In this document: piece after piece, positions 308 through 16,522 of the stretch
Position numbering within the stretch: position 1 is the stretch's first letter
Layout: each line of letters begins with the position of its first letter
Notes under the pieces: generated by a model
Databases searched by the model: none
Told to the model about the DNA's origin: nothing
The model's input: only the letters and a program-made list of their open reading frames with translations
Translations under genes and position numbers: made by a program
IMG/VR virus record: IMGVR_UViG_3300033148_002887
Coordinates: 1 to 21,034 of that record
Direction: 5' to 3' (one strand)
DNA from: a virus
DNA length: 21,034 bases

Positions 308-670
308 TTAAATTGGGTCAATGCCCTGTGGGACAACTTTCAACGTATAATGCTCCTCGATATTAAATGGAGGGGCTAACGTAGTATTGATTACTTCAAT
401 TACTTGAGTATATGGACGATAACTTTCGCTATCATCAACATCTAATAGATTTGTTTCCGTCGGAGTTAATGCAGCGATAAATCTTAAATTATCCGCTGTC
501 TTGCCAGTCACTTCCCTCTTAGCAATTACAACTGCTCCATCTGCATCATTGACAGCGGTAAAGCAGCTCCAGTTTGAATCGAGAGTCGCTCCATCATCTA
601 ATACCGTTGGTCGTGGCCTAATAATTGGCCCAGTATCACCTTGGTAAATTGTATATTCTTCAACAGCCAT
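308..670 (-). CDS. Hypothetical phage structural protein, 120 aa
   Basis: A small protein of 120 residues with no signal peptide or membrane segment. It opens with EEYTIYQGDTGPIIRPRP and alternates beta-strand-like stretches, for example GAVVIAKREV, NLRFIAALT and HYTLKVVPQ. This resembles small beta-sandwich proteins found near phage fibres and baseplates (a start with QGDTGP and a polarised strand pattern), but I cannot assign a family. AGGA lies seven bases before the ATG. The gene overlaps the end of the 660-5225 adhesin by 11 bases, so the two are probably translationally coupled. It sits between the adhesin and the head-tail connector, so a virion role is likely. Confidence 0.75.
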   Translation of the reverse strand: MAVEEYTIYQGDTGPIIRPRPTVLDDGATLDSNWSCFTAVNDADGAVVIAKREVTGKTADNLRFIAALTPTETNLLDVDDSESYRPYTQVIEVINTTLAPPFNIEEHYTLKVVPQGIDPI

Positions 671-3600
671 CTTCTAGTCCTATAAGTTCAATAGTAGAGT
701 CTAACATATAATTTTCAGGCAGCATAGATAGATCGAGTGTTTCTATTTCGATATCTAAATCATAAGATTCATTATCATAATTTATTCCATATGGAACGCA
801 TAATAACGGAGTTCCACCAGTAAAGGATAAGGTTGCGTCAGAACCAGTTATATCAAATTCAACTGTTTCTGCTACTATACTATGGTGATATGCAAATTCT
901 ACATTTGTGCCGGAAATTATAAAAGTACCGGACTCTGTACCAATAGACTTATTATGTGCTAAGCCTATATCTTGGCCGGATATTAAGAAAGATCCATTTT
1001 CTGCAATAATAGAATTTACAGTCTTTAATGTAACATCTTGCCCGAGTATTACATACTCGCCAACCTCAGAGGATATTGCATAACTTGTTTTAAACGATAC
1101 ATCCGTTCCAGATATATCATATTCGCCGTTAGAGACAGATATGGCATACCCTTTTCCTAAATCGACAGATTGACCCGTAATATTAAATGATACGCTATCT
1201 ACAGATGCTACTTTATCTGATAGGAAATTAACGTCCGTACCAGTAATATTGAATAGCCCAGTTTCAGTAAATAATACTAATTCACTATTAAATGTTACAT
1301 CAGCGCCAGTTATTAAAAACTCGCCATTTAACGTAGATACTGTATAGTCTCTATTAAAGTCAATATCTATGCCAGTAATATTAAATACGGTAGTCGCTGT
1401 AGATAAAGTATAATCTATTAATAGTTCAGCAGGTTGGCTATTAATAGCAAAAGCGCCAGATATGACATTCGCCGTATAGTCTATGCTGAAGTTGACGTCC
1501 TGTCCTGATATATTAAACTGCCCATTCTCTATAGAAATTGCATATCCAACTGCTAAATCTACATCAAAGCCAGATAGCGTAAATTCTCCATTTTCTGCTA
1601 TTAGCGAATTTTGAGCCGAAAGATTAACATCTTGTCCCGTTACGTTAAATGATCCAACTTCATTAATGAGAACGTACTCTTTAGATAATACTATATCAGT
1701 ACCATCTAAAGAAAACGCTCCATTATTTGAATTAAGGATATAATCAACTGAGAGATCAACAACAGTTCCGCTGATCGTATATCCTTCAGAAATATTAGAC
1801 AAAGTATAGTCTACTGAAAGATTTACATCAAATTCAGTTATTATATATGAGCCAGACCCTGCTAATATTGATTTCTCACTATCAAAATTAACATCTGTTC
1901 CTGTTATTAAGTATGCCCCATAATCCGGTATTAGCGCATAATCACGATTAAACGTAACCTCCGTTCCAGTGAATAAATAAGAGCCAGAAAGTACATCTAG
2001 TGTATATTTTATCGAGAGATTAACATCGGAGCCATCGATTAAGAAAGCGCCATTTTCTGTAGCTAGAGTATAATCTCTATCTAATTCTGCATCTATTCCA
2101 GTAATTAGAAATGATTCAACGGTAGGGATTAATATATATCCTTGCTGGAGATCTACGCTTGCCCCAGTAATATTAAATAATGTAGATATTGAGCCTAATA
2201 CATATCCCTGTTGCAGGTCTACGTCTGTCCCTGTAATATCGAATAATCCAGATCCAGCGGATAATGATTTTTCGCTATCGAAATTAACATCAAATCCAGT
2301 TATTGTATATTCGCCAACAATAGTTGATATTGCATAATTACGGCTAAATGCAACATCTATTCCCGTAATATTAAATGCAGTCGTCTCAGTAACTAATGAA
2401 TATCCCTGCCGTAAAGTGGCATCCGTTCCATCAATATTAAACGCTGAGGTTATCGTGCTTAATGAATACCCTTGTTGAAGGTCTACATCAAAGCCAATTA
2501 TATTAAATATGCCAGAGCCAGCGGATAGTGATTTAGTACTATCGAAGTTGATGTCATACCCTGTTATTACATATTCGCCAGCAATAGTAGTTATTGCATA
2601 ATTAAGATCGAACGTAACATCGTTGCCGGATATATTAAAGGCTTTAGTTGATGTAGTTAGTGTATAGTCCTGAGAAAGAGTTACATTAGAGCCAGAGATA
2701 ATAAATGATTCTGTAGAAGGAACTAATGAATATCCCTGAGTAAGATTAGCCGCCGTACCCGTAATATTAAATTCTTCTGTAATCGTTTGCAATACATACG
2801 ATATTGCAAAATCTACATCAGTACCAACTATATCAAATGATACAGTTAGATTGGGGAGACTATACCCTATTTGAAGATCTGTGTTTGACCCAGTAATACT
2901 AAATACTTCTGTAAGAGTATCTAATGTATAGTGTATCGCGCTAGATCCCTTAGTCAGTGTAACGTCTGTACCGATTATGTCGAATTGTACTGTTTCTATT
3001 GCTACCGGATGACCATGGATTAAGCGAGTAGATCCAGTCTCACCAAGAATAATTGCCCCGAGTTTTGCGGATCCTAATGTAAAACCATAATCACCATATA
3101 TATAAGTTCCAGATAAAGCATCAAGAATACTAGATGCATCTATGCCTAAATCGACAATCGTCCAAGTGTGATCTGCAATAAGTGCAGCGCGTGCAGCCAC
3201 AGCACTCGAATTATAATGGATTGTGCTCGCACCTAAAGATACATCGTTAAGAACTGCTTGCGCTTCCCACCCTATTAATATATTACTATAATTCTCTGTG
3301 GATAATCCGGATTGGTCAAATGTATTAGGAGCAGTGGTTAATCCAGTAACATTCCAGGATGCTAGATTTTGATTAAAGGAAGTAGCTAAACCAAAAGTAA
3401 AGGTTAAATTCGATAATGATGAACTCGGTTCCCAGCTAGATATATCTTGATTAAATGCAGGTGAATTATAAAATGTCGCGTAGCATGTCGTTACTGCACT
3501 TACATCCCAAGACGTTATATTTCCATTAAATATAAGACAAGAAGAAAACGTGCCAGCTAAATTATTAACAAGACTTGTATTCCACGAATTTAAGTCTTGA

Positions 3601-5225
3601 TTAAACGAATCACAATCATAAAATGTATAGTACAGGCTATTACAGCCTGAAACGTCAAACCCATCAATATCGGCGTTAAATAAAGGACAACCCCAAAAGG
3701 TTCTTTGTATATTTGTTAATGCTGAAGTAATCCAACTAGATAATCCTGTTCCAGTGAAGGATGAGCACCCTCTAAAAGTTTGATATAGAGATTCAACTAA
3801 AGTTACATCCCAACTAGAAAGATCAGCATCAAAATCAAAACATTGATTAAAGGCTTCTTCTAGCGTCGTTATTGACGTTGTAGTCCAGTTGGATAATCCA
3901 ACACCCGTAAAAGAAAAGCAATTACTAAAGGCTTTATATAAACTTATTCCAGAACTAATATCCCAGTCACTAAAATCATAAACACTTAGTGAAGAGCAGC
4001 CATTAAACATGTTTTCAAAAGCTGTTACACCAGATAAATCAGGATAATCGGTAGCCGATATATCTAAGTTAATACAATCATATGCAAAACTTGACATAGT
4101 ATCAAAAGCAGCGTCGCCCCACCGCTTAATATCTATCCATTTTATATTATCCGACGATTCACCGAACTCAAAATTAAACGCCGAACATGTTCCTATAATC
4201 GAAACATCATACTCACCGGCTAATTCATACTCGTGAGTTTTACTCGTCTGCCATCCAGCGGTTACAGTAGATGATTCCCCGTCTCCCCAATAAACGGTAA
4301 AGTTATATGTGCTACCAGAAAAATTAAGAGGGAGAGTAATAGACTCAGCATCAGCCGTAGTCTTCCAAGTAGTTATAAATGGATTGCCACTTATAATATT
4401 TACATTCACCCCTGTAATATTAAACGCTTCAGTAAGCGTATCTAACGTATAATGATTGGCGACACTTTCTTTTGTTAGAGTAACATCCGTGCCAGTTATA
4501 GCAAAAGATTCAGTTATTGCCTCGGTAGCGTAACCTTGCTTTAATATTACATCTGTGCCCGTTATTGCGAAAGATTCTGGTATTGCCTCGGTAGTGTAAC
4601 CTCGTTTTAATGTTACATCTGCGCCAGTTATAGCAAAAGATTCCTCTAAAGCGTCGAGCGCGTGATGCTTAATATAAGTAAGCTCTACATCCGTTCCTGT
4701 TATTGCGAAAGATTCTGTTGTCGCATCTAATGTGTAATGAGTAACCTCTATTTCGTACGTTATCGTAAATTCAAGTTGATCTTGTAAGCAAACCGTGGAA
4801 CCATAGGGGTCGTTGCCATATCCGGTTGAATCAGTACCAGCTGAATTTTTCCAAGAAGTTGAGCCCGTTTCTAACGCCTCCGCTGATAGGGTAATGGTAG
4901 TGGCACCATCAACCAGGACAACAAGACCAGATTTTACTGAGACCCCAGTAACAAAATCAGTAACCCTGTAATCCATTGAGGCTGAAGTAACTCCTGTTAC
5001 TGTTGTTCCAGCCGGAACACCCATATCCTCCCAAGTTAGCGTTCTATCCCAGTAGTTTGGAGAAGAAGTATTACCTTTATTTCGTCCGTAGCAATGCGAG
5101 CTAAGCGAGCGGAGTGGATTGCCTTGGAAAGCATTCAGCTCCATAGTAACGGAACTACTATCTGGATGCGAAACGAAGCTCTCTACATCAGTATAAAAGG
5201 CGAAGGTTTTTACTACAGTAGCCAT
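660..5225 (-). CDS. Giant phage adhesin: 22-residue repeat arrays flanking a BspA-type (DUF285) LRR module, 1521 aa
   Basis: Residues 1-161 form a beta-rich N-terminal domain, probably for virion attachment. Residues 163-279 hold five copies of a 22-residue repeat with the core FxITGxDVxL. Residues 281-693 hold a PKD-like unit (VYWGDGESS, then THEYELAGEYDVSI) and a BspA-type LRR (DUF285) with recurring FNxDLSSWDVS-type motifs. Residues 740-1468 hold 33 more repeats, the last 32 exactly in 22-residue register. A 53-residue tail ends in GLEDGC. No signal peptide is seen, as expected for a virion protein. The ATG lies one base after the TAA of the upstream gene and has no clear SD, which suggests coupled translation. 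A role as tail fibre, receptor-binding or decoration protein is inferred from the domains and the late-operon position. Similar ITGxDVxL repeats occur in phage tail-associated proteins by recollection. Confidence 0.88.
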   Translation of the reverse strand: MATVVKTFAFYTDVESFVSHPDSSSVTMELNAFQGNPLRSLSSHCYGRNKGNTSSPNYWDRTLTWEDMGVPAGTTVTGVTSASMDYRVTDFVTGVSVKSGLVVLVDGATTITLSAEALETGSTSWKNSAGTDSTGYGNDPYGSTVCLQDQLEFTITYEIEVTHYTLDATTESFAITGTDVELTYIKHHALDALEESFAITGADVTLKRGYTTEAIPESFAITGTDVILKQGYATEAITESFAITGTDVTLTKESVANHYTLDTLTEAFNITGVNVNIISGNPFITTWKTTADAESITLPLNFSGSTYNFTVYWGDGESSTVTAGWQTSKTHEYELAGEYDVSIIGTCSAFNFEFGESSDNIKWIDIKRWGDAAFDTMSSFAYDCINLDISATDYPDLSGVTAFENMFNGCSSLSVYDFSDWDISSGISLYKAFSNCFSFTGVGLSNWTTTSITTLEEAFNQCFDFDADLSSWDVTLVESLYQTFRGCSSFTGTGLSSWITSALTNIQRTFWGCPLFNADIDGFDVSGCNSLYYTFYDCDSFNQDLNSWNTSLVNNLAGTFSSCLIFNGNITSWDVSAVTTCYATFYNSPAFNQDISSWEPSSSLSNLTFTFGLATSFNQNLASWNVTGLTTAPNTFDQSGLSTENYSNILIGWEAQAVLNDVSLGASTIHYNSSAVAARAALIADHTWTIVDLGIDASSILDALSGTYIYGDYGFTLGSAKLGAIILGETGSTRLIHGHPVAIETVQFDIIGTDVTLTKGSSAIHYTLDTLTEVFSITGSNTDLQIGYSLPNLTVSFDIVGTDVDFAISYVLQTITEEFNITGTAANLTQGYSLVPSTESFIISGSNVTLSQDYTLTTSTKAFNISGNDVTFDLNYAITTIAGEYVITGYDINFDSTKSLSAGSGIFNIIGFDVDLQQGYSLSTITSAFNIDGTDATLRQGYSLVTETTAFNITGIDVAFSRNYAISTIVGEYTITGFDVNFDSEKSLSAGSGLFDITGTDVDLQQGYVLGSISTLFNITGASVDLQQGYILIPTVESFLITGIDAELDRDYTLATENGAFLIDGSDVNLSIKYTLDVLSGSYLFTGTEVTFNRDYALIPDYGAYLITGTDVNFDSEKSILAGSGSYIITEFDVNLSVDYTLSNISEGYTISGTVVDLSVDYILNSNNGAFSLDGTDIVLSKEYVLINEVGSFNVTGQDVNLSAQNSLIAENGEFTLSGFDVDLAVGYAISIENGQFNISGQDVNFSIDYTANVISGAFAINSQPAELLIDYTLSTATTVFNITGIDIDFNRDYTVSTLNGEFLITGADVTFNSELVLFTETGLFNITGTDVNFLSDKVASVDSVSFNITGQSVDLGKGYAISVSNGEYDISGTDVSFKTSYAISSEVGEYVILGQDVTLKTVNSIIAENGSFLISGQDIGLAHNKSIGTESGTFIISGTNVEFAYHHSIVAETVEFDITGSDATLSFTGGTPLLCVPYGINYDNESYDLDIEIETLDLSMLPENYMLDSTIELIGLEDGC
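822..3008 (-). repeat. Long coding tandem array: 33 units of 22 residues (66 bp)
   Basis: This stretch encodes residues 740-1468 of the giant adhesin. From residue 765 to 1468 there are 32 consecutive units of exactly 22 codons (2112 bp) without an indel; one further unit precedes them with a short linker. The unit is GYxLxxxxxxFxITGxDVxLxx. The DNA has diverged between units while protein register is kept, which indicates selection on the protein rather than fresh slippage. A higher-order repeat is visible: units at residues 875-962 (2340-2603) match the next four at 963-1050 (2076-2339), each block starting NYAI and containing KSLSAGSG in its second unit. Confidence 0.95.
4389..4739 (-). 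repeat. Short coding tandem array: 5 units of 22 residues
   Basis: This encodes residues 163-279 of the giant adhesin, upstream of the BspA module. Five units carry the same core as the long array. The first four contain ESFAITGTDV or ESFAITGADV and are much more alike than the units of the long array, so they look recently duplicated. Two small linkers (2 and 5 residues) break the register, unlike in the long array. The LRR module appears inserted between two parts of one repeat system. Confidence 0.92.
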
Positions 5226-5226
5226 A

Positions 5227-5667
5227 TTACTGGTTCGCTATAATCCTATCTGCGATAGCTTTTATTTCAAGATATGAATCCTTAACGGCTGGATCAAAAT
5301 CAGACGCTAAGATTACGCTATCATCCAATAACTTACTTACTAACTGAACAAGAACTAGAACGGTATCTTTTCCATATAACCTAAGAGCCTCCGTGTCCTT
5401 TGCTACCCGTTCTTGATCCAACTCCATTTGAGTTTTAGTAACTACTGTATAAACTCTAGTAGCAACATTTGTTACATAATCATACGAATCTTCGGGAATA
5501 GAAAGACGTTCTATTTCTGTATCTACTGCCGGCTTAGTAATATCAACTTCTACTAGAAATATTTTTCCGTTAACAATAGAAGAATCTTTAGTATTATATG
5601 TTTCAAATAATCCGGTTCTACTACCAATTATAATATGTACTACAGGGTCTATTTCAAAATAAAGCAT
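5227..5667 (-). CDS. Hypothetical protein, 146 aa, between the two BspA-LRR genes
   Basis: I chose the ATG at 5665-5667 (MLYFEIDPVVH) because GGAGGT at 5676-5681 lies eight bases upstream and the ATG overlaps the TAA of the preceding gene by one base (TAATG). A longer frame starting at 5697 would overlap the upstream gene by 31 bases. The N-terminal half looks beta-rich (HIIIGSRTGLFETYN, GKIFLVEVDI). The C-terminal half is helical and charged, with MELDQERVAKDTEALRLYG and a last helix near LEIKAIADRIIANQ. No membrane segment is seen. The shape recalls small fibre-associated or chaperone-like proteins, but I do not recognise it. It lies in the adhesin cluster of the late operon. Confidence 0.8.
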   Translation of the reverse strand: MLYFEIDPVVHIIIGSRTGLFETYNTKDSSIVNGKIFLVEVDITKPAVDTEIERLSIPEDSYDYVTNVATRVYTVVTKTQMELDQERVAKDTEALRLYGKDTVLVLVQLVSKLLDDSVILASDFDPAVKDSYLEIKAIADRIIANQ

Positions 5668-6719
5668 TACGCTGAACCTCCATCGGTTATAGCCCAATTA
5701 TAAGTATCTGTAAGAACTAACTTAGCGGCAGTTTTGGTATATTTGGCTGTGCCAGCGTGGAACGGAACATCGCTTTGTAACGACTGGTGCTCCCAAGCAT
5801 CGAGAAGCAGATCGTAGTTTGTATCTGAAAACGCAGAAGAATAAAACATAAAGTCCATAGTGGCAACATCAGCAACGTCTAATCCACTAACATCTGGGTT
5901 AGCAAGTGTTGCCCCGTAAAACATGTAATCCATATTAGCGACGACGCCAGTGTTCCACCCACTGATATCTGGATTCAGCGCTGTAGCATTACAGAACATA
6001 TACTGCATATTCTCTACTAGTGTCGTCACCCAATCAGCTACATACGGATCAGCTGAAGTGGCCCCATAAAACATAAACTCCATACTTGTTACGCCACTAA
6101 CATCCCAATCCGTTACATCTGGATCCGCTGATGTTGCACCATAAAATACAAATTCCATATTCGTAGCGGAACTTGTATCCCAAAAACTCGTATCTGGATC
6201 TGCTGCTATAGCGCCATAGAACATAGCATAGAAGCTCCAAGCTGTGCCTAAATCCCATGAACTTGTATTCGGATTGACCAGTACCGCATCGCGGAACATA
6301 CCGCCAACATCTGTTACAGAGCCAAAAGCTCCAGCGTCTGTCGCAGTAGTATATAAATTGGAACAACCGTAAAAAGCTCCATTAAGATAAGTGAAGCCTA
6401 CATCTCCCCAATTAGATACATCTATGATCTTTAGCCTATCTCCAGCATTATTGAAAGACCAAGCCTCACAGGTTCCTGAAATAGTTACAATATAATCACC
6501 AGCATCATCATATTCATGAGTGGCATCAGCATCATCCCACGCTGTCACCGTTTTTAATCCAGAGTCATCCCCATAATCAACCATGAAGTCATATGTATAT
6601 ATGCCAGTTATTAATGGAAGAACAATACTCTCGCTTGCACCAGAAGTGTGCCATTCAGTAATAAAATCAGATGACCCCCTGGATGCCTTACCAAATTGCA
6701 TTCCATTCATACTAAACAT
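5667..6719 (-). CDS. BspA-type (DUF285) leucine-rich repeat phage protein, 350 aa
   Basis: Residues 19-82 form a PKD-like unit (FMVDYGDDSG, then THEYDDAGDYIVTISG). Residues 100-300 are a BspA-type LRR (DUF285) with an exact 25-residue spacing of the key Trp at 155, 180, 205, 230 and 255, in the pattern WDxSxxxNMxxMFYGAxxADPD. A tail follows (DAWEHQSLQSD to WAITDGG). The whole module parallels residues 281-693 of the neighbouring giant adhesin, from its FITxW start through its HxWTIVD-like end, so the two genes share a duplicated or exchanged module. The ATG directly follows the TAA of the fibre gene; GAGGA lies ten bases upstream, and an internal ATG at codon 4 is an alternative. Surface binding is inferred. 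Confidence 0.88.
   Translation of the reverse strand: MFSMNGMQFGKASRGSSDFITEWHTSGASESIVLPLITGIYTYDFMVDYGDDSGLKTVTAWDDADATHEYDDAGDYIVTISGTCEAWSFNNAGDRLKIIDVSNWGDVGFTYLNGAFYGCSNLYTTATDAGAFGSVTDVGGMFRDAVLVNPNTSSWDLGTAWSFYAMFYGAIAADPDTSFWDTSSATNMEFVFYGATSADPDVTDWDVSGVTSMEFMFYGATSADPYVADWVTTLVENMQYMFCNATALNPDISGWNTGVVANMDYMFYGATLANPDVSGLDVADVATMDFMFYSSAFSDTNYDLLLDAWEHQSLQSDVPFHAGTAKYTKTAAKLVLTDTYNWAITDGGSA
5850..6257 (-). repeat. Coding 75-bp tandem repeats of the DUF285 LRR
   Basis: About five and a half units of 25 codons (residues 155-290 of the 350-residue protein). Adjacent units keep near-identical DNA around the MFYGATSADP segment; on the plus strand this shows as recurring blocks containing CCATAAAACATA and TCCAT. 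The high DNA identity compared with the older 22-residue array suggests recent unequal recombination or gene conversion. Confidence 0.85.
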
Positions 6720-8405
6720 TTAGGTATCATCCTCAGCGTCAATTGTATAATATAAAGTTACACCATGTAATCTCGCATCAATAGCCATATCATCAGATGC
6801 ATGTGCGACATCCCTATTAATCTTAAAGACAATAATATCTTCAGCTGCCGGAGTTCCAGCTATCGTTACCGCAGATGATCTACTAGAAATGTATAAATCA
6901 TCTGTTGTCCCTCCGGTATTTTCTATATCAATCTCCGTACCAAATGCACTATCTAACGCGTCTCCGTCAGAATTAGCGTTTCCCGATAAAGACCAAACTA
7001 CACCAAAGTTAGTAGTAGTCGCAGCGTGACTCCATGAAGCAGCGAATAGAATAGTTTCTTCATCCCATGACTTTGGCATCCTTACTTGAAATTGAATTGA
7101 CTCAGATGTAGTAGCGTCAAAATCCATAGCTGCTATCATTACATCGTTTGTAGCCAATTCTAACTCTGCATATTCTGCTCCATTTGTCTCATTGGATATC
7201 ATTGCAGATGCTGGGATCCAAATAGTATGAAGCCCTTGTGCTATTTTTGCATCAAGTTCGGTTTGCAAATCTGTTTGGTCGGCAATAGTCCCAGTAATGC
7301 CTCCCCATATCGAGCTTGTCGCGCCACTTACGGAAAGAGCAATTCCAGCGCTAGTAAATCTCCAATCTACATAATCTCCACCAGTATCCGTCGTCCTTAT
7401 TACTGATTTTACGCTGTTCGCATAACTATCGTTTGTTTGTATTATAAAACTAGCGATTGATTTATATTCCGTTATTGGCAGTCGTCCGTATTCTATTGTT
7501 GATATTTCATCTAAGGCTCCACTTCTAGCACTAGTAACATTTAGATATTCGTTTTCACCAACTATAAAGAAGAAATTATCATCGATGTCGTTTGTTGCAT
7601 ATAAGTGCATTAGCATATAACGACCATTTGAAATCTCGGCTAATTGCCAAGTAGCACCAGTCCATTCATTATACGCAGCCCTACCGGTGCCAGTAGTAGT
7701 AATGATATAATCGGTGGCTGGAATTTTAACCCATAGGCCAGATGAGGATCCAGCTCTATATAATATCGGAATACTAGTTGGCCTCGGATCGGAATCAATC
7801 TCTATTTTTATGTCTTCATCCCAAATCGCTCCTAACGTAATTCCAATCTGCGCATGGATCGCTAACGATCCATCACCATCGGGAGTTATATCAATTGGCT
7901 GTAATCCATCTGAATATGCTGTTCCACGAGTATTGTGTAAATACTGATGTGATATGGCATCCATAATTATACCATGCCTTTCATCCGCCACCGTTGTTGC
8001 AGACGATTCTACTCCATTCCAATATACAAAAGCAATAAGTGCAGTATTGAGAATATAAGAATCATGCCAAATTACAGATTCTGTTAAATTACCTGATACA
8101 TTATAAAAAATATAATGCATCCCCGAATCAGTTGATAAAACGAGATCGTCAGCCTCAGTTATTACATGCTGATTTCCATTAGAAAAAAATGTAAAAGATG
8201 TAGATGAAGGCTGAATAGTAAACGTCCTTGTGCCATCTACAAAGGAAATTATACTATCCGCCCTATTAACAAAACCATTTTCTACGGGCTGATATTTAAC
8301 AAACTCATCCTCAACAAGATCAAAGCCAGTCTCTATCTCTTCCACATCAGAAGCGCTATAAACTTCGCCATCAACCAAATCATTATTAAAGAATGAGTTT
8401 GTCAT
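6720..8405 (-). CDS. Tail fibre / receptor-binding protein, 561 aa
   Basis: The N-terminus (NNDLVDGEVYSASDVEEIETGF) matches the opening helix motif of many phage fibres. A long beta-rich shaft follows. Residues 367-388 (WGGITGTIADQTDLQTELDA) are a classic fibre linker with a short coiled coil. Residues 392-558 form a C-terminal domain with LHTIWIPASAM, a central MPKSWDEETILFAASWSH, VVWSLSG and an end DARLHGVTLYY. By recollection this domain recurs in fibre or surface proteins of environmental phages. AAGGA lies eight bases before the ATG. The gene ends directly at the ATG of the BspA-LRR gene, so the two are probably co-translated. It likely contacts the host surface. Confidence 0.85.
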   Translation of the reverse strand: MTNSFFNNDLVDGEVYSASDVEEIETGFDLVEDEFVKYQPVENGFVNRADSIISFVDGTRTFTIQPSSTSFTFFSNGNQHVITEADDLVLSTDSGMHYIFYNVSGNLTESVIWHDSYILNTALIAFVYWNGVESSATTVADERHGIIMDAISHQYLHNTRGTAYSDGLQPIDITPDGDGSLAIHAQIGITLGAIWDEDIKIEIDSDPRPTSIPILYRAGSSSGLWVKIPATDYIITTTGTGRAAYNEWTGATWQLAEISNGRYMLMHLYATNDIDDNFFFIVGENEYLNVTSARSGALDEISTIEYGRLPITEYKSIASFIIQTNDSYANSVKSVIRTTDTGGDYVDWRFTSAGIALSVSGATSSIWGGITGTIADQTDLQTELDAKIAQGLHTIWIPASAMISNETNGAEYAELELATNDVMIAAMDFDATTSESIQFQVRMPKSWDEETILFAASWSHAATTTNFGVVWSLSGNANSDGDALDSAFGTEIDIENTGGTTDDLYISSRSSAVTIAGTPAAEDIIVFKINRDVAHASDDMAIDARLHGVTLYYTIDAEDDT

Positions 8406-8416
8406 TATTCTATTCC

Positions 8417-8833
8417 TTATTCAACAGTAAGAACGCTAGCGCCGAAGTCCAATGTAAATGTCTCTGTATCCGCGAGGGTCACTTCAGAACCATAATCATA
8501 CCAACCGACTAGATTCTTGCTGCCAGCAGTATCGTTATATAATGCAACATATTGGAATGGCCCCATCGAGGCGGTTGCAGTCCAGACGACGTCAGTCGCG
8601 GTCATAGTTCCAACACCACCAGATTCTGTATACAGGTTTTGGATATCTTCGCCACCAGTAGTATATCCAGCACCATTAGTCAACTCATTACCGGATATAT
8701 CGGCGTATGTAGCATTAGATGCAATAGGAGCTGTATTTGTCAGCATCGCCATAACAGCATCAGTGTTAAGATCGTGTACACCCAAGCCAATTTGCTCGGC
8801 AAAATCTTCAAATTTATTAAATGCAGAAGCCAT
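8417..8833 (-). CDS. Small phage structural protein, 138 aa
   Basis: It begins ASAFNKFEDFAEQIGLGVHDL and continues with AMLTNTAPIASNATYADISGNEL, NGAGYTTGGED, TATDVVWTATASMGPFQYVALYND and GWYDYGSEVTL, ending TFTLDFGASVLTVE. This order of motifs recurs in a widespread family of phage structural proteins that are usually annotated as hypothetical; it looks like a beta-sandwich and may be a tail-tip or decoration protein. AGAGGA lies seven bases before the ATG. The gene lies 11 bases before the fibre gene and follows the endolysin. Length is normal for the family as I recall it. Confidence 0.82.
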   Translation of the reverse strand: MASAFNKFEDFAEQIGLGVHDLNTDAVMAMLTNTAPIASNATYADISGNELTNGAGYTTGGEDIQNLYTESGGVGTMTATDVVWTATASMGPFQYVALYNDTAGSKNLVGWYDYGSEVTLADTETFTLDFGASVLTVE

Positions 8834-8853: not shown

Positions 8854-9279
8854 TCAATAACAACTTAGGTCGTGCCTAAGTTTACGAATGTCATACTTCT
8901 TTTTCATGCCAGTTTTTTGAAAGTGAGGCATATCATATTTCCAAAGATCATAACCCCAATCAATTCCTAATCCGTTGACTCGGTTAACCTCTTTCATAGC
9001 GTTAGCTACTATAATACATGCATCTTCTTCCCATTTTGCAGTACCATTGATCCACGGGACTAAATCAACTGCCAACCCATATAGATGATAACTATCTATA
9101 GTAGAACTTGCTCCAACCAAAATTAAATTTTCTTGCTTTTGGATCGAGCGTATTCCGTCAAAAGCGGTAAAATCTTGCTTGGTAATCTTAATTGCCTCTG
9201 TAACACAATAGCTTACCTCTGGGTGAAGGCCAACTAATTGCGCCATAGATTTTTTCCCTAATTTAAAATGAATAGACAT
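8854..9279 (-). CDS. Endolysin, M15-family zinc peptidase (L-Ala-D-Glu / D-Ala-D-Ala type), 141 aa
   Basis: The N-terminus FKLGKKSMAQLVGLHPEV is the family's opening (LGxxS...L.GVHP). DFTAFDGIRSIQKQENLI follows, then the zinc motif SYHLYGLAVDL with His65 and Asp72, then WGYDLWKYDMPHFQ with His119 as the third zinc ligand. These are the hallmark motifs of M15 peptidases that cut peptide links in peptidoglycan. The length is that of single-domain phage endolysins. There is no signal or SAR segment, so a holin should release it; several small membrane-protein genes lie directly upstream. The start overlaps the stop of the 9279-9752 gene by one base. Confidence 0.93.
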   Translation of the reverse strand: MSIHFKLGKKSMAQLVGLHPEVSYCVTEAIKITKQDFTAFDGIRSIQKQENLILVGASSTIDSYHLYGLAVDLVPWINGTAKWEEDACIIVANAMKEVNRVNGLGIDWGYDLWKYDMPHFQKTGMKKKYDIRKLRHDLSCY

Positions 9280-9752
9280 TAGTCAAAATTCGTATGCGTA
9301 CGCAATTCAATCTTATACAAACGAGATTCTAAATCATCAACCCGCATCTTTAGTTCTTTACCTTCTTCTTCAAATCTGCTTGGTTCATTAGATGCGGATT
9401 CGAGTGATCTAATTCTTTCTTCCGCTGCAAGTCCCATATCGAAAGTATATCTTTTTCCTTGAGTAGCTCTGTTGTATGACAAATCTATTTTAATGTCTCT
9501 TGCTGCTAATTCACTCATAAAATGATCAGTAATATTATTATGCGCCATTCGTCCATTATCGGATATTGTAGTCAGTTTATTTGACACAACTCCCATATAA
9601 TACGCTCCTGTCGCTAAAGGAACTAGAAGAACAGCGACTAACGGCCAAATTTTTACCATGTCATCGCTTACTGCTGCGGCCATTCCAAGTGCACCTATAA
9701 ATGTCTTTTTGCCAGCTATAGTAAAGCCAGCTATTGTTACTGGATCAACCAT
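9279..9752 (-). CDS. Membrane-anchored coiled-coil protein, possible holin or inner-membrane spanin, 157 aa
   Basis: A weakly hydrophobic N-terminal stretch (residues 6-28) precedes one strong membrane helix at about 35-57 (KIWPLVAVLLVPLATGAYYM). The rest is charged and helical, with a likely coiled coil at about 105-152 (EERIRSLESASN, ELKMRVDDLESRLYKIELR). A single membrane helix followed by a coiled coil is the shape of an inner-membrane spanin, but it also fits some holin or lysis-accessory proteins. It lies directly upstream of the endolysin with a one-base overlap and overlaps the 9745-10014 gene by eight bases, so a lysis role is inferred from context. No family was recognised. Confidence 0.8.
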   Translation of the reverse strand: MVDPVTIAGFTIAGKKTFIGALGMAAAVSDDMVKIWPLVAVLLVPLATGAYYMGVVSNKLTTISDNGRMAHNNITDHFMSELAARDIKIDLSYNRATQGKRYTFDMGLAAEERIRSLESASNEPSRFEEEGKELKMRVDDLESRLYKIELRTHTNFD

Positions 9753-13533: not shown

Positions 13534-15114
13534 TCATTTCTTAATAGTCTTATCCATAGTATTCGTCTTAACTAAGCCTTCACCTACGTCTAATTCGTCA
13601 GTAATCATTCCATCGTTAGCGCTCGAATCTATATCCCCTGGCTCTACTGGCGCTTCGTATTTCTCTCCGTCTTTATCTAGCCTATCTAATTCATCCTGAA
13701 CAGTTTCACCTGGATGTAACATCCCGGCCTTACGGAAACTTTCAAGAAGCGTGCTATGGCTAATAGCGGTAGACTGCCAGCTTTGGATCATAGCGATCTG
13801 CTCGTTAGCAGTAAGGCTAAACGTAGAGAACTCCTGATTCGGAGTAAATTCGGTTTCGTTTTCGTCTCCGCCAGCCCAAATAGTAGCCCATCTACTTATT
13901 TGCTGTAGCCCTACTCCAACATTACCGACGACGGATTTAAGCGATGCAGTAGCCGAAGCCTGCCTAAGTCGAAGAGCCTCTCCAGATTCTGCCGCTCCTT
14001 TTCTCGATCCGAGCAATGATGCACCGAGTTCTTGCGCTTGAGAATATAAATCTACTATCCTAGCCAATAGGTGAGTCATAGCGGAAGTATCGGTAGTTGT
14101 ATACCCTACCCTTGCCTGACTATCCGCTAGAGATATGAGTACGCCTAGTCCAGTAGCACCAGGTGTCTCGTCCTTATCAACTCCGGTCATATACATAGTC
14201 GGAACTGTAGACGTATTCTCTGCATGCTTTAGCATACAAGATAAATCATATATACTAATTTCGCAGTCTGCTATTCCCTCTAAAGGAATAATATCTATAT
14301 CTGGGGTATTATCGAGAGATCCACATGCAATTACTGGAATAAAGTCAATCGTCTTGCCCATATATGTCGGCACTATCGTTTCTACTACAGTGCCATCATC
14401 AGTCGCTCTATGGTTCTCGATTGTGTATATGCCGTTAACTAGCATATGGCGAATTATAATTTCCTTATGTTTTGGCACGCCACGATTAGAAATTGGATCG
14501 TATTTTTCGTTTAGTTCATAATCGCGAAAAATAGCCCAATTAAAAGTAGAGTCGTCAGTAGATGCATCGGACGCTTCCCAATTTAAAAGCGCCGTTTCAC
14601 GAAATTGTACGATTTTAATTTTACCGTCAGAGTCATCTATATCAAGCACCAAAGGACAACGCCCCTTGAGCAAAATCTGAAGAGCTACTCTTAAAAATAA
14701 TTCGTTAAGTGATTTGCCATCTTTCGTCGCACGCTCGGAAAGATATTCCATGCTATCGGGGGCTTCATAAACAGACTTATGCTCTCCGACGAGAGACATG
14801 TTTCCCCGTGTAGTTGGCCCTAGCAAATCCGGGACGTATCCATCGTTAATATATTTCTTAGTTAATGGGAAGTCGTCCCAGCCAGCACCTTCCGCGAGTG
14901 GTTGAATCAGACCGTTAGTGGACTTCTTCATCTGCTCTATCTGCGTCGCATCGAGCAACGTAACGTCCATTTGACCTGCTGGAGCAGCTATGTACCTTTG
15001 AGCGTAGCGCTTTACGTCACGATTATAGCAGTCGTCCATTTTCATCCATCTGGATAAAGCACGGCCATAAGTTTCGTGAATATCTACGTTAATAGCGCTA
15101 GATTGCATTATCAA
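13534..15114 (-). CDS. Portal protein, DUF4055-like, 526 aa
   Basis: The protein is large, polar and without membrane segments. The pattern (DLLGPTTRGNMSLVGEHKSV, LKGRCPLVLDID, IVQFRETALLNWEASD, PLEGIADCEISIYDLSCMLKH, ETPGATGLGVLISLADSQAR and ASLLGSRKGAAESGEALRLR) matches the DUF4055 portal group: the SGxALRxR motif and a long C-terminal helical region are characteristic. It sits between terminase and scaffold, the canonical place for the DNA-translocation ring of the head. The TTG at 15112-15114 is preferred because GGAG lies seven bases before it and it overlaps the upstream TGA; the ATG at 15106-15108 would have a 13-base spacer. The C-terminus is acidic, with a short basic tip. Confidence 0.85.
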   Translation of the reverse strand: MIMQSSAINVDIHETYGRALSRWMKMDDCYNRDVKRYAQRYIAAPAGQMDVTLLDATQIEQMKKSTNGLIQPLAEGAGWDDFPLTKKYINDGYVPDLLGPTTRGNMSLVGEHKSVYEAPDSMEYLSERATKDGKSLNELFLRVALQILLKGRCPLVLDIDDSDGKIKIVQFRETALLNWEASDASTDDSTFNWAIFRDYELNEKYDPISNRGVPKHKEIIIRHMLVNGIYTIENHRATDDGTVVETIVPTYMGKTIDFIPVIACGSLDNTPDIDIIPLEGIADCEISIYDLSCMLKHAENTSTVPTMYMTGVDKDETPGATGLGVLISLADSQARVGYTTTDTSAMTHLLARIVDLYSQAQELGASLLGSRKGAAESGEALRLRQASATASLKSVVGNVGVGLQQISRWATIWAGGDENETEFTPNQEFSTFSLTANEQIAMIQSWQSTAISHSTLLESFRKAGMLHPGETVQDELDRLDKDGEKYEAPVEPGDIDSSANDGMITDELDVGEGLVKTNTMDKTIKK

Positions 15115-15626
15115 TGTACTACTCCACGTGTTTGTGGTTTAAGTTCGCGCACTGGCATTAGGTAATATACTAGATACCCAACTGCGTCAGTAATATGATC
15201 TAGCCCAGACTTCTTATCGGGTTGCCCGTTAGGAGTATAAATTTGCTGTTCGAGGGCTTCTGTTATTTCGGGGCATCTTTCAGTATCGATAAATAATTTT
15301 TCGCGATTAAATGCGTTATTTACCGACGCAATTCTATCCTTAATGAATGGGTTTTTACTTCTTGCCCTAATTGAAAATCCAGCTTTGCGCAATAATGCAA
15401 TATCAGACGTTCCTGCGTCGGTCGATCCTCTCTTTATGCCACTAGCATCGGGATAACAAATTAGTTTATCGTCTGGAAAATCGAATTGTATTGCTGCAAC
15501 TAATTCCGGGGTATCCAAGAAATCATGGTATTCTTTGAATACATATAATTTTCCGTCGATTAATCTAGCGCAAACAGCCGCCATATGCTCCACGTTAAAG
15601 TCCATTCCTACGTGAAGAATCTTCAT
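15111..15626 (-). CDS. terL: Terminase large subunit, nuclease domain (separate gene), 171 aa
   Basis: It opens with KILHVGMDFNVEHMAAVCAR, the start of a RuvC-like TerL nuclease with Asp9 as the first metal ligand. A second acidic motif is ICYPDASG, with the Asp in a strand end. The third is GLDHITDAVGYLVYYL near the C-terminus. These are the three acidic sites of the headful-cutting nuclease. It normally belongs to the same protein as the ATPase; here it is a separate frame, shifted by -1 and joined to the upstream ATPase by an ATGA overlap. AGGAT is too close to the ATG to be a good SD. The stop overlaps the portal TTG. Confidence 0.87.
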   Translation of the reverse strand: MKILHVGMDFNVEHMAAVCARLIDGKLYVFKEYHDFLDTPELVAAIQFDFPDDKLICYPDASGIKRGSTDAGTSDIALLRKAGFSIRARSKNPFIKDRIASVNNAFNREKLFIDTERCPEITEALEQQIYTPNGQPDKKSGLDHITDAVGYLVYYLMPVRELKPQTRGVVH

Positions 15627-16522
15627 CCTATCGATACCACGTTAGAGTTATACATTTCGTCGTTAATAGCGTCGTTGAATTCAAAGTGATGATCCTTTCT
15701 GCTAAAGCAATGATAGCAGGCTCCGCCAGTTAAGTTGACGAATTCTCCATTTAGATATGCTTCGATTAACTGTGGTGGATAACTAGCGCGCAAATTAGCT
15801 ATATAGCTCTTAGGCAAATAAGGATTAGATTCAGTGGCCGCCCTGACTAAAAGGTATCCTTCATTATCTTCCTTTTCCCATTTCTTATAAGTAAATTTAT
15901 ATCCTTCAGGAGTGGTGAACACTCCTACTTTATTAGGAATTGTGAACGTCCCATTATATATAGTATCCGCTGGTAGCGGTGCAGACTCGTTTTCAAAGTC
16001 TGCCATTATATCTTTTGGGATGACCGTTCCAAGAGGCGGCTGCTGACGATTACGAGAGATGATTTTATTCCATGCTTCTTCGGCTCTCGATTGGGGCATA
16101 GTATCTAATTCGTCTACAAAGCTAGCGAATACTTCATAGGCTATAATCCTTGCCGGGTTATCCATGGAGCGACAGATTATCTTACCGTGGCCTTTAATAT
16201 AAAAGATGAAATCTTGTTTATTAAAAGTCCAGGACAGGCCAAAGTGATCAAGGAGTTCCGCGATTCGGGGCTGATTGTTTAGCTTAATCAAATCGTAAGT
16301 AGGAGCGTAAAGAGCTACGTTAGCCCAAGGGAATTTTACTACGGTCATTACTGCGATATAGTGCATGATTTCTGATTTGCCGGAGCCAAAGCCCGCGACG
16401 AACGCTAATGCCCAAGCAGTAAGCGTGAACCATGCATTCCAGAACTTTCCTTGTGGAGGCGTCGTTTGCCAAGCGTGATCGCTATCGCTGACTGTAGACT
16501 GAATTGATGCCTGCTTACTCAT
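15623..16522 (-). CDS. terL: Terminase large subunit, ATPase domain (separate gene), 299 aa
   Basis: The Walker A motif is GFGSGKS at residues 44-50 and the Walker B is FASFVDELD at 132-140, with Asp137 and Glu138. A coupling motif (VFTTPEGYKFTYKKW, 201-215) follows. The end (EAYLNGEFVNLTGGACYHCF) is the usual end of the ATPase region. ATPase plus nuclease gene total 470 residues, the normal length of a whole TerL, so no sequence is lost at the junction. The start overlaps the putative small terminase stop by four bases (ATGA). It stops in NVVSIG just where the nuclease strand should begin. Confidence 0.9.
   Translation of the reverse strand: MSKQASIQSTVSDSDHAWQTTPPQGKFWNAWFTLTAWALAFVAGFGSGKSEIMHYIAVMTVVKFPWANVALYAPTYDLIKLNNQPRIAELLDHFGLSWTFNKQDFIFYIKGHGKIICRSMDNPARIIAYEVFASFVDELDTMPQSRAEEAWNKIISRNRQQPPLGTVIPKDIMADFENESAPLPADTIYNGTFTIPNKVGVFTTPEGYKFTYKKWEKEDNEGYLLVRAATESNPYLPKSYIANLRASYPPQLIEAYLNGEFVNLTGGACYHCFSRKDHHFEFNDAINDEMYNSNVVSIG

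Follow-up and report, generated by a model that had tools for sequence, protein, structure and literature searches.

A 22-residue repeat array in a putative modular appendage protein of a siphovirus-like phage

Introduction

Most characterized phage fibers are anchored to the virion N-terminally. The fiber of P-SCSP1u is an example (PMC10575957). Phage fibers with BppU_N or gp77 adaptors include lactococcal BppU and podophage GP4. PARCEL repeats, in turn, are known for their dispersal between genomes and are found on microbial cell-surface proteins (PMC2996958). Proteins matching PARCEL/DUF285 (PF03382, TIGR02167) are commonly annotated as 'BspA family leucine-rich repeat surface protein', and a phage example is ORF 200 of vB_VhaM_pir03 (PMC7765460).

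Here, we describe a 1521-residue phage protein that can be compared to each of these systems. In contrast to known PARCEL/DUF285 proteins, its module is inserted within a phage array of 22-residue units, and the coding DNA has little dyad symmetry. Genes of BppU_N or gp77 adaptors adjoin array genes in several phage groups, whereas the 120-residue protein encoded next to the array gene described here has no detectable homology to either.

Results

The window, the whole stretch of 21,034 nucleotides that was analyzed, is the linear 21-kb IMG/VR record IMGVR_UViG_3300033148_002887. Coordinates refer to the window, and the features located in it are encoded on the minus strand. A near-identical 28-kb record, L004, also includes a gene resembling that of a tail tube and a long ORF of tape-measure-like character, and the phage is therefore siphovirus-like. 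The gene of the 1521-residue putative modular appendage protein (660–5225) has a near-identical counterpart of 1539 residues in L004 and a 1154-residue relative in L005. It is located in a tail-fiber cluster. Upstream lie genes of a phrog_644 protein (8417–8833), a 561-residue putative tail protein (6720–8405; phrog_25379, E = 4e-4), a solo PARCEL/DUF285 protein (5667–6719), and a 156-residue protein (5227–5697), the last of which is kept in L005. The gene of the 120-residue protein (308–670) starts within the end of the appendage gene and is followed by the gene of the head-tail adaptor Ad1 (2–295; phrog_493 and phrog_477), which is truncated where the record ends. Lysis-type genes (8854–9752), encoding an M15 peptidase and its neighbor, separate the capsid genes from the fiber genes. 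The large terminase is encoded in two ORFs (15111–16522) with a 4-nt overlap, one for the ATPase (Terminase_6N) and one for the nuclease (Terminase_6C); such split ORFs are also present in L006 (655–2161 of that record).

The 1521-residue protein is composed of a β-rich N-terminal domain (residues 1–160; 4746–5225), repeat units 1–5 (residues 163–279; 4389–4739), an inserted PARCEL/DUF285 module with its leading domain (residues 280–692; 3150–4388), an atypical linker that aligns with a homologous linker in L005 (residues 693–737; 3015–3149), repeat units 6–38 (residues 738–1468; 822–3014), and a 53-residue C-terminal tail (663–821). An iterated 22-column profile identified exactly 38 units of 22 residues, arranged 5+33, all of which score at least 26.7; in 200 shuffled versions of the protein, the score never exceeded 11.0. 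Units 1–5 have spacings of 24, 22, 22, and 27 residues, whereas units 7–38 (residues 765–1468) are 32 consecutive indel-free copies of exactly 22 residues each. The preliminary description had reported the same 5+33 arrangement with 32 indel-free units, and its span of 822–4739 is exact, from the last base of unit 38 to the first base of unit 1; the BspA/DUF285 module that it placed between the two parts of the array is indeed there (PF03382, E = 3.4e-86).

The core of the unit is strongly conserved, with F/Y11 in all 38 units, L/F20 in 37, G15 in 36, I13 in 34, D17 and V18 in 28 each, and T14 in 22. Core positions of the array are about 90–100% conserved and the other positions mostly 55–85%. 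Self-comparison of the gene revealed old block duplications, for example at offsets of one and four units. The junctions of units 4–5 and 6–7 resemble copies of one another, which suggests that a duplication of units accompanied the insertion of the PARCEL module.

The 22-residue units are predicted to form an ordered β-repeat fold. An AlphaFold2 model of units 25–38 with the tail has a pTM of 0.73 and pLDDT values of about 66–89 in the array blocks up to residue 280; most units have their β-strands at equivalent positions, and the C-terminal tail is predicted to be disordered. The model thus bears out the ordered repeat fold anticipated in the preliminary description. Foldseek matched it to the model of phage protein A0A6J5NQD7, named for an F5/8C domain (TM-score 0.73, 2.7 Å over 326 columns), and to a second phage model with a TM-score of 0.68. 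Among solved structures in the PDB, Foldseek found no match at E ≤ 0.001. The weak matches are mostly β-helix proteins, resembling β-helical tailspikes and other β-solenoids, but the similarity is not significant (best E = 0.16) and the array protein lacks a catalytic domain. The model of the N-terminal half has a mean pLDDT of 58 and is poor outside the PARCEL region. It has jelly-roll and CBM-like Foldseek matches, which at this low confidence serve as a lead only.

A profile search with the 22-residue unit found arrays in 94 loci. Adjacent units are spaced by 22 residues in 1102 of about 1400 pairs from these loci, with 20 residues as the next most frequent spacing (147 pairs), and the consensus of 903 distinct units is [GA]xxLxAxxGSFTLTGQDAxL. 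In scans with the consensus unit, 265 of 303 matching stretches in viral contigs encode the 22-residue repeat, as opposed to a single true relative, in Pelagibius, among 316 matches in prokaryotic genome contigs; the scans used short exact patterns, so that the counts are lower bounds and the viral-cellular contrast is approximate. The array had no match in plasmids, and a genome scan with the array of L013 as the query returned none. Neither Pfam nor NCBIfam contains a model of the repeat, and its PHROGs matches are unnamed. A PDB search with a single array sequence found nothing, and one with the array profile gave one weak match, to the large adhesion protein 6xi3 (E = 0.009). We found no description of a 22-residue phage repeat among open-access papers, to which the literature search was confined.

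The array of the 1521-residue protein belongs to this family by its tandem 22-residue units with the core F-x-[IL]-[TS]-G-x-[DA]-x-x-[LF]. Arrays of other phages (parts of phrog_21462, phrog_2356, and phrog_8591; L010, L013, L019, and L031–L110) share its unit length and the core G-[ST]-F-x-[LI]-T-G-x-D-x-x-L. The lineage of the 1521-residue protein differs from them in its IxGTDV rather than LTGQDA core, its 38–40 units compared to at most 36 seen elsewhere, and the PARCEL insert. The protein is thus a striking member of a widespread unnamed phage repeat family and not a unique object. A short N-terminal motif similar to MLGFSPLASAPLADxG precedes the array in thirteen loci (L024, L041, L042, L047, L051, L054, L060, L072, L077, L094, L099, L102, and L106). 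Apparent mini-repeats of 10–14 residues make up the C-terminal tails of array proteins from L037, L054, L061, L062, L070, L086, L088, and L097, for example xIVQVVEQDAN in L097, and are possibly repeated docking peptides.

The reading frame is intact in L004, where 7 synonymous and 6 non-synonymous codons out of 1521 differ, and it is kept in L005. Units 19–38 pair one-to-one with units 21–40 of L005, at 78% amino acid identity and a dN/dS of 0.30. Differences in number comprise whole units and are confined to the N-terminal side of unit 19. The selection on array order and register postulated in the preliminary description holds in that the array is under purifying selection with its frame kept, but the order is retained one-to-one only in the C-terminal 20 units. 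The array dN/dS is the highest among the products compared with L005. The most constrained are the C-terminal tail (94% identity, dN/dS 0.06, a rough value since the tail has only 53 codons) and the 120-residue protein (91% identity, dN/dS 0.06); elsewhere dN/dS is 0.10–0.21. Identities of other products include 72% for the major capsid protein and 69% for Ad1. The dS values of the 3' half of the array (0.43), the tail (0.42), and the 120-residue protein gene (0.83) are lower than those of most other genes (1.4–2.6; M15 peptidase 0.84), which indicates that these segments have a more recent history of exchange than the bulk of the genome. Their raw identities are therefore inflated, whereas the contrast in dN/dS is independent of the exchange. 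An exposed rod with a docking interface would give such a pattern, in which the array evolves fastest and the tail and the next gene slowest. Two further ORFs are located among the structural genes of L005 and L006. In L005 (3861–5045), a 394-residue ORF that resembles a homing endonuclease separates the capsid gene from the structural gene next to it, and L006 (7833–8708) carries a sulfotransferase-like ORF.

The variable parts of the protein, as judged from L004, L005, and L006, are the N-terminal domain and the PARCEL module. The N-terminal domain is 18 residues shorter than its counterparts in L004 and L006, and a 54-bp in-frame deletion relative to both lies at residues 136/137. L005 has a different domain in its place. 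In L006 (10001–12514), this N-terminal domain precedes another kind of repeat, with units of about 20 residues (HTGxGxLxSxxSxISGxG).

The embedded module matches PF03382 with 285 bits (cut-off 25), and the DUF285 match of the solo gene has an E-value of 3e-39. Against TIGR02167, a 26-residue repeat with a cut-off of 30 bits, the embedded copy scores 18 bits and the solo gene 37.8 bits. The module, previously called a BspA LRR, is better named a DUF285/PARCEL repeat of 25–26 residues. We sought strong dyad symmetry in the PARCEL DNA and found none: the embedded module has a single 14-nt hairpin besides two distant pairs that are weak, and none were detected in the solo gene. The solo gene, next but one upstream of the appendage gene, is a paralog of the embedded module, the leading domain of which shares homology with the beginning of the solo protein. 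Given an amino acid identity of just 32%, we reject the notion that the insert arose from the solo gene by recent duplication. The module is missing from L005, in which the array runs on through the homologous linker. The idea of a stalk carrying an LRR head accordingly fits this lineage only, as the module is optional and is inserted toward the N-terminal side.

The upstream neighbors of array genes across the family belong mostly to tail-fiber, fiber-assembly, and baseplate-wedge families. Of 54 array loci, 14 encode a homolog of phrog_644 no more than three genes away from the array gene, and in L019, L021, and L025 array genes are located beside fiber or spike genes and not neck genes. A degenerate array is fused N-terminally to a hub-like protein (phrog_8917) in gp72 of EBPR siphovirus 2 (L009, 5017–7776). 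Head-tail adaptors are encoded downstream of array genes in the 21-kb record, L005, and L013. BppU_N is encoded downstream of the array gene in 10 of 78 loci scanned. A 107-residue BppU_N-type ORF follows directly (+1) in 13 representative loci. A Gp77 fiber-tail adaptor is encoded downstream of the array gene in L037 (5e-22), where it matches PDB 8jou, and in L077 (1e-17). As these adaptor-bearing loci are partly related, they represent at least four independent groups rather than thirteen. Such adaptors occur in other array loci only, and no homologous one is encoded beside the 1521-residue protein. The 120-residue protein has no Pfam match, and profile comparison gave probabilities of 7% for BppU_N and 0.1% for Gp77, so that its assignment to either is unsupported. 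It is a candidate docking adaptor by virtue of its position, size, and constraint, not homology.

Discussion

We consider it probable that the 1521-residue protein is a modular appendage, in which a solenoid rod docked by the C-terminal tail carries exchangeable N-terminal and PARCEL modules. It would be a fiber-type appendage of the siphovirus-like phage, and we infer its presence on the virion, as well as its polarity, docking partner, and binding role. The 22-residue units may stack into a β-rich solenoid-like rod, in which units 7–38 would span about 15 nm if one unit corresponds to one rung at the usual rise of 4.8 Å. Most likely, the rod is attached to the virion by its conserved unstructured tail, probably via the 120-residue protein encoded immediately downstream, beside the head-tail adaptor gene. 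The rod would then most likely project from the virion and present the swappable β-rich N-terminal domain and the PARCEL module near it as candidate binding parts. Recombination appears to add and remove whole units, mostly in the N-terminal half.

The main rival of C-terminal docking is ordinary N-terminal anchoring, in which the N-terminal domain would attach to the virion, the tail would be distal, and the PARCEL module would be a side decoration near the base. This arrangement is the usual one in characterized phage fibers, and it agrees with the short N-terminal motif shared as a conserved end by many array proteins and with the occurrence of the same N-terminal domain before a different repeat in L006. 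We nevertheless hold it to be rather unlikely, since L005 replaces the N-terminal domain while the tail and the downstream gene are the most conserved, and a tail predicted to be disordered would be an odd receptor-binding tip.

The 'decoration fiber' alternative raised in the preliminary description also has points in its favor. The appendage gene is located between the capsid and lysis genes and the head-tail adaptor, array genes are comparably placed in L013, next to neck genes, and in L010, next to the gene of the tail tubular protein, and microbial cell-surface proteins carry PARCEL repeats (PMC2996958). The protein could thus decorate the head or neck and aid loose sticking to surfaces or matrix, instead of being a receptor-binding fiber. 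The fiber, fiber-assembly, and baseplate families that mostly surround array genes across phages point to a role in adsorption or as an appendage more than to simple decoration of the capsid, and no capsid-binding domain was found in the protein; we judge decoration improbable. It is similarly doubtful that the array acts as a passive spacer that sets length, with a 22-residue register arising from unit-wise slippage alone and no selected periodic surface. The highest dN/dS among the compared products and the gain and loss of whole units in relatives would suit a spacer, but this dN/dS is still well below 1, the core is far better conserved than the other unit positions, and the C-terminal 20 units are retained one-to-one.

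If C-terminal docking of the solenoid rod is true, it is the opposite of the usual N-terminal anchoring of phage fibers, and swapping of N-terminal domains and mobile PARCEL modules between phages would change what is bound. The pair formed with L005 is a natural experiment, in which the N-terminal domain was swapped, the PARCEL module inserted, and whole units added, while the tail was kept. We speculate, tentatively, that the 22-residue solenoids form a widespread class of appendages with C-terminal docking to a small adaptor encoded directly downstream and exchanged distal N-terminal or PARCEL modules. Naming the 22-residue repeat would annotate many phage proteins and flag likely appendage genes in uncultured phages.
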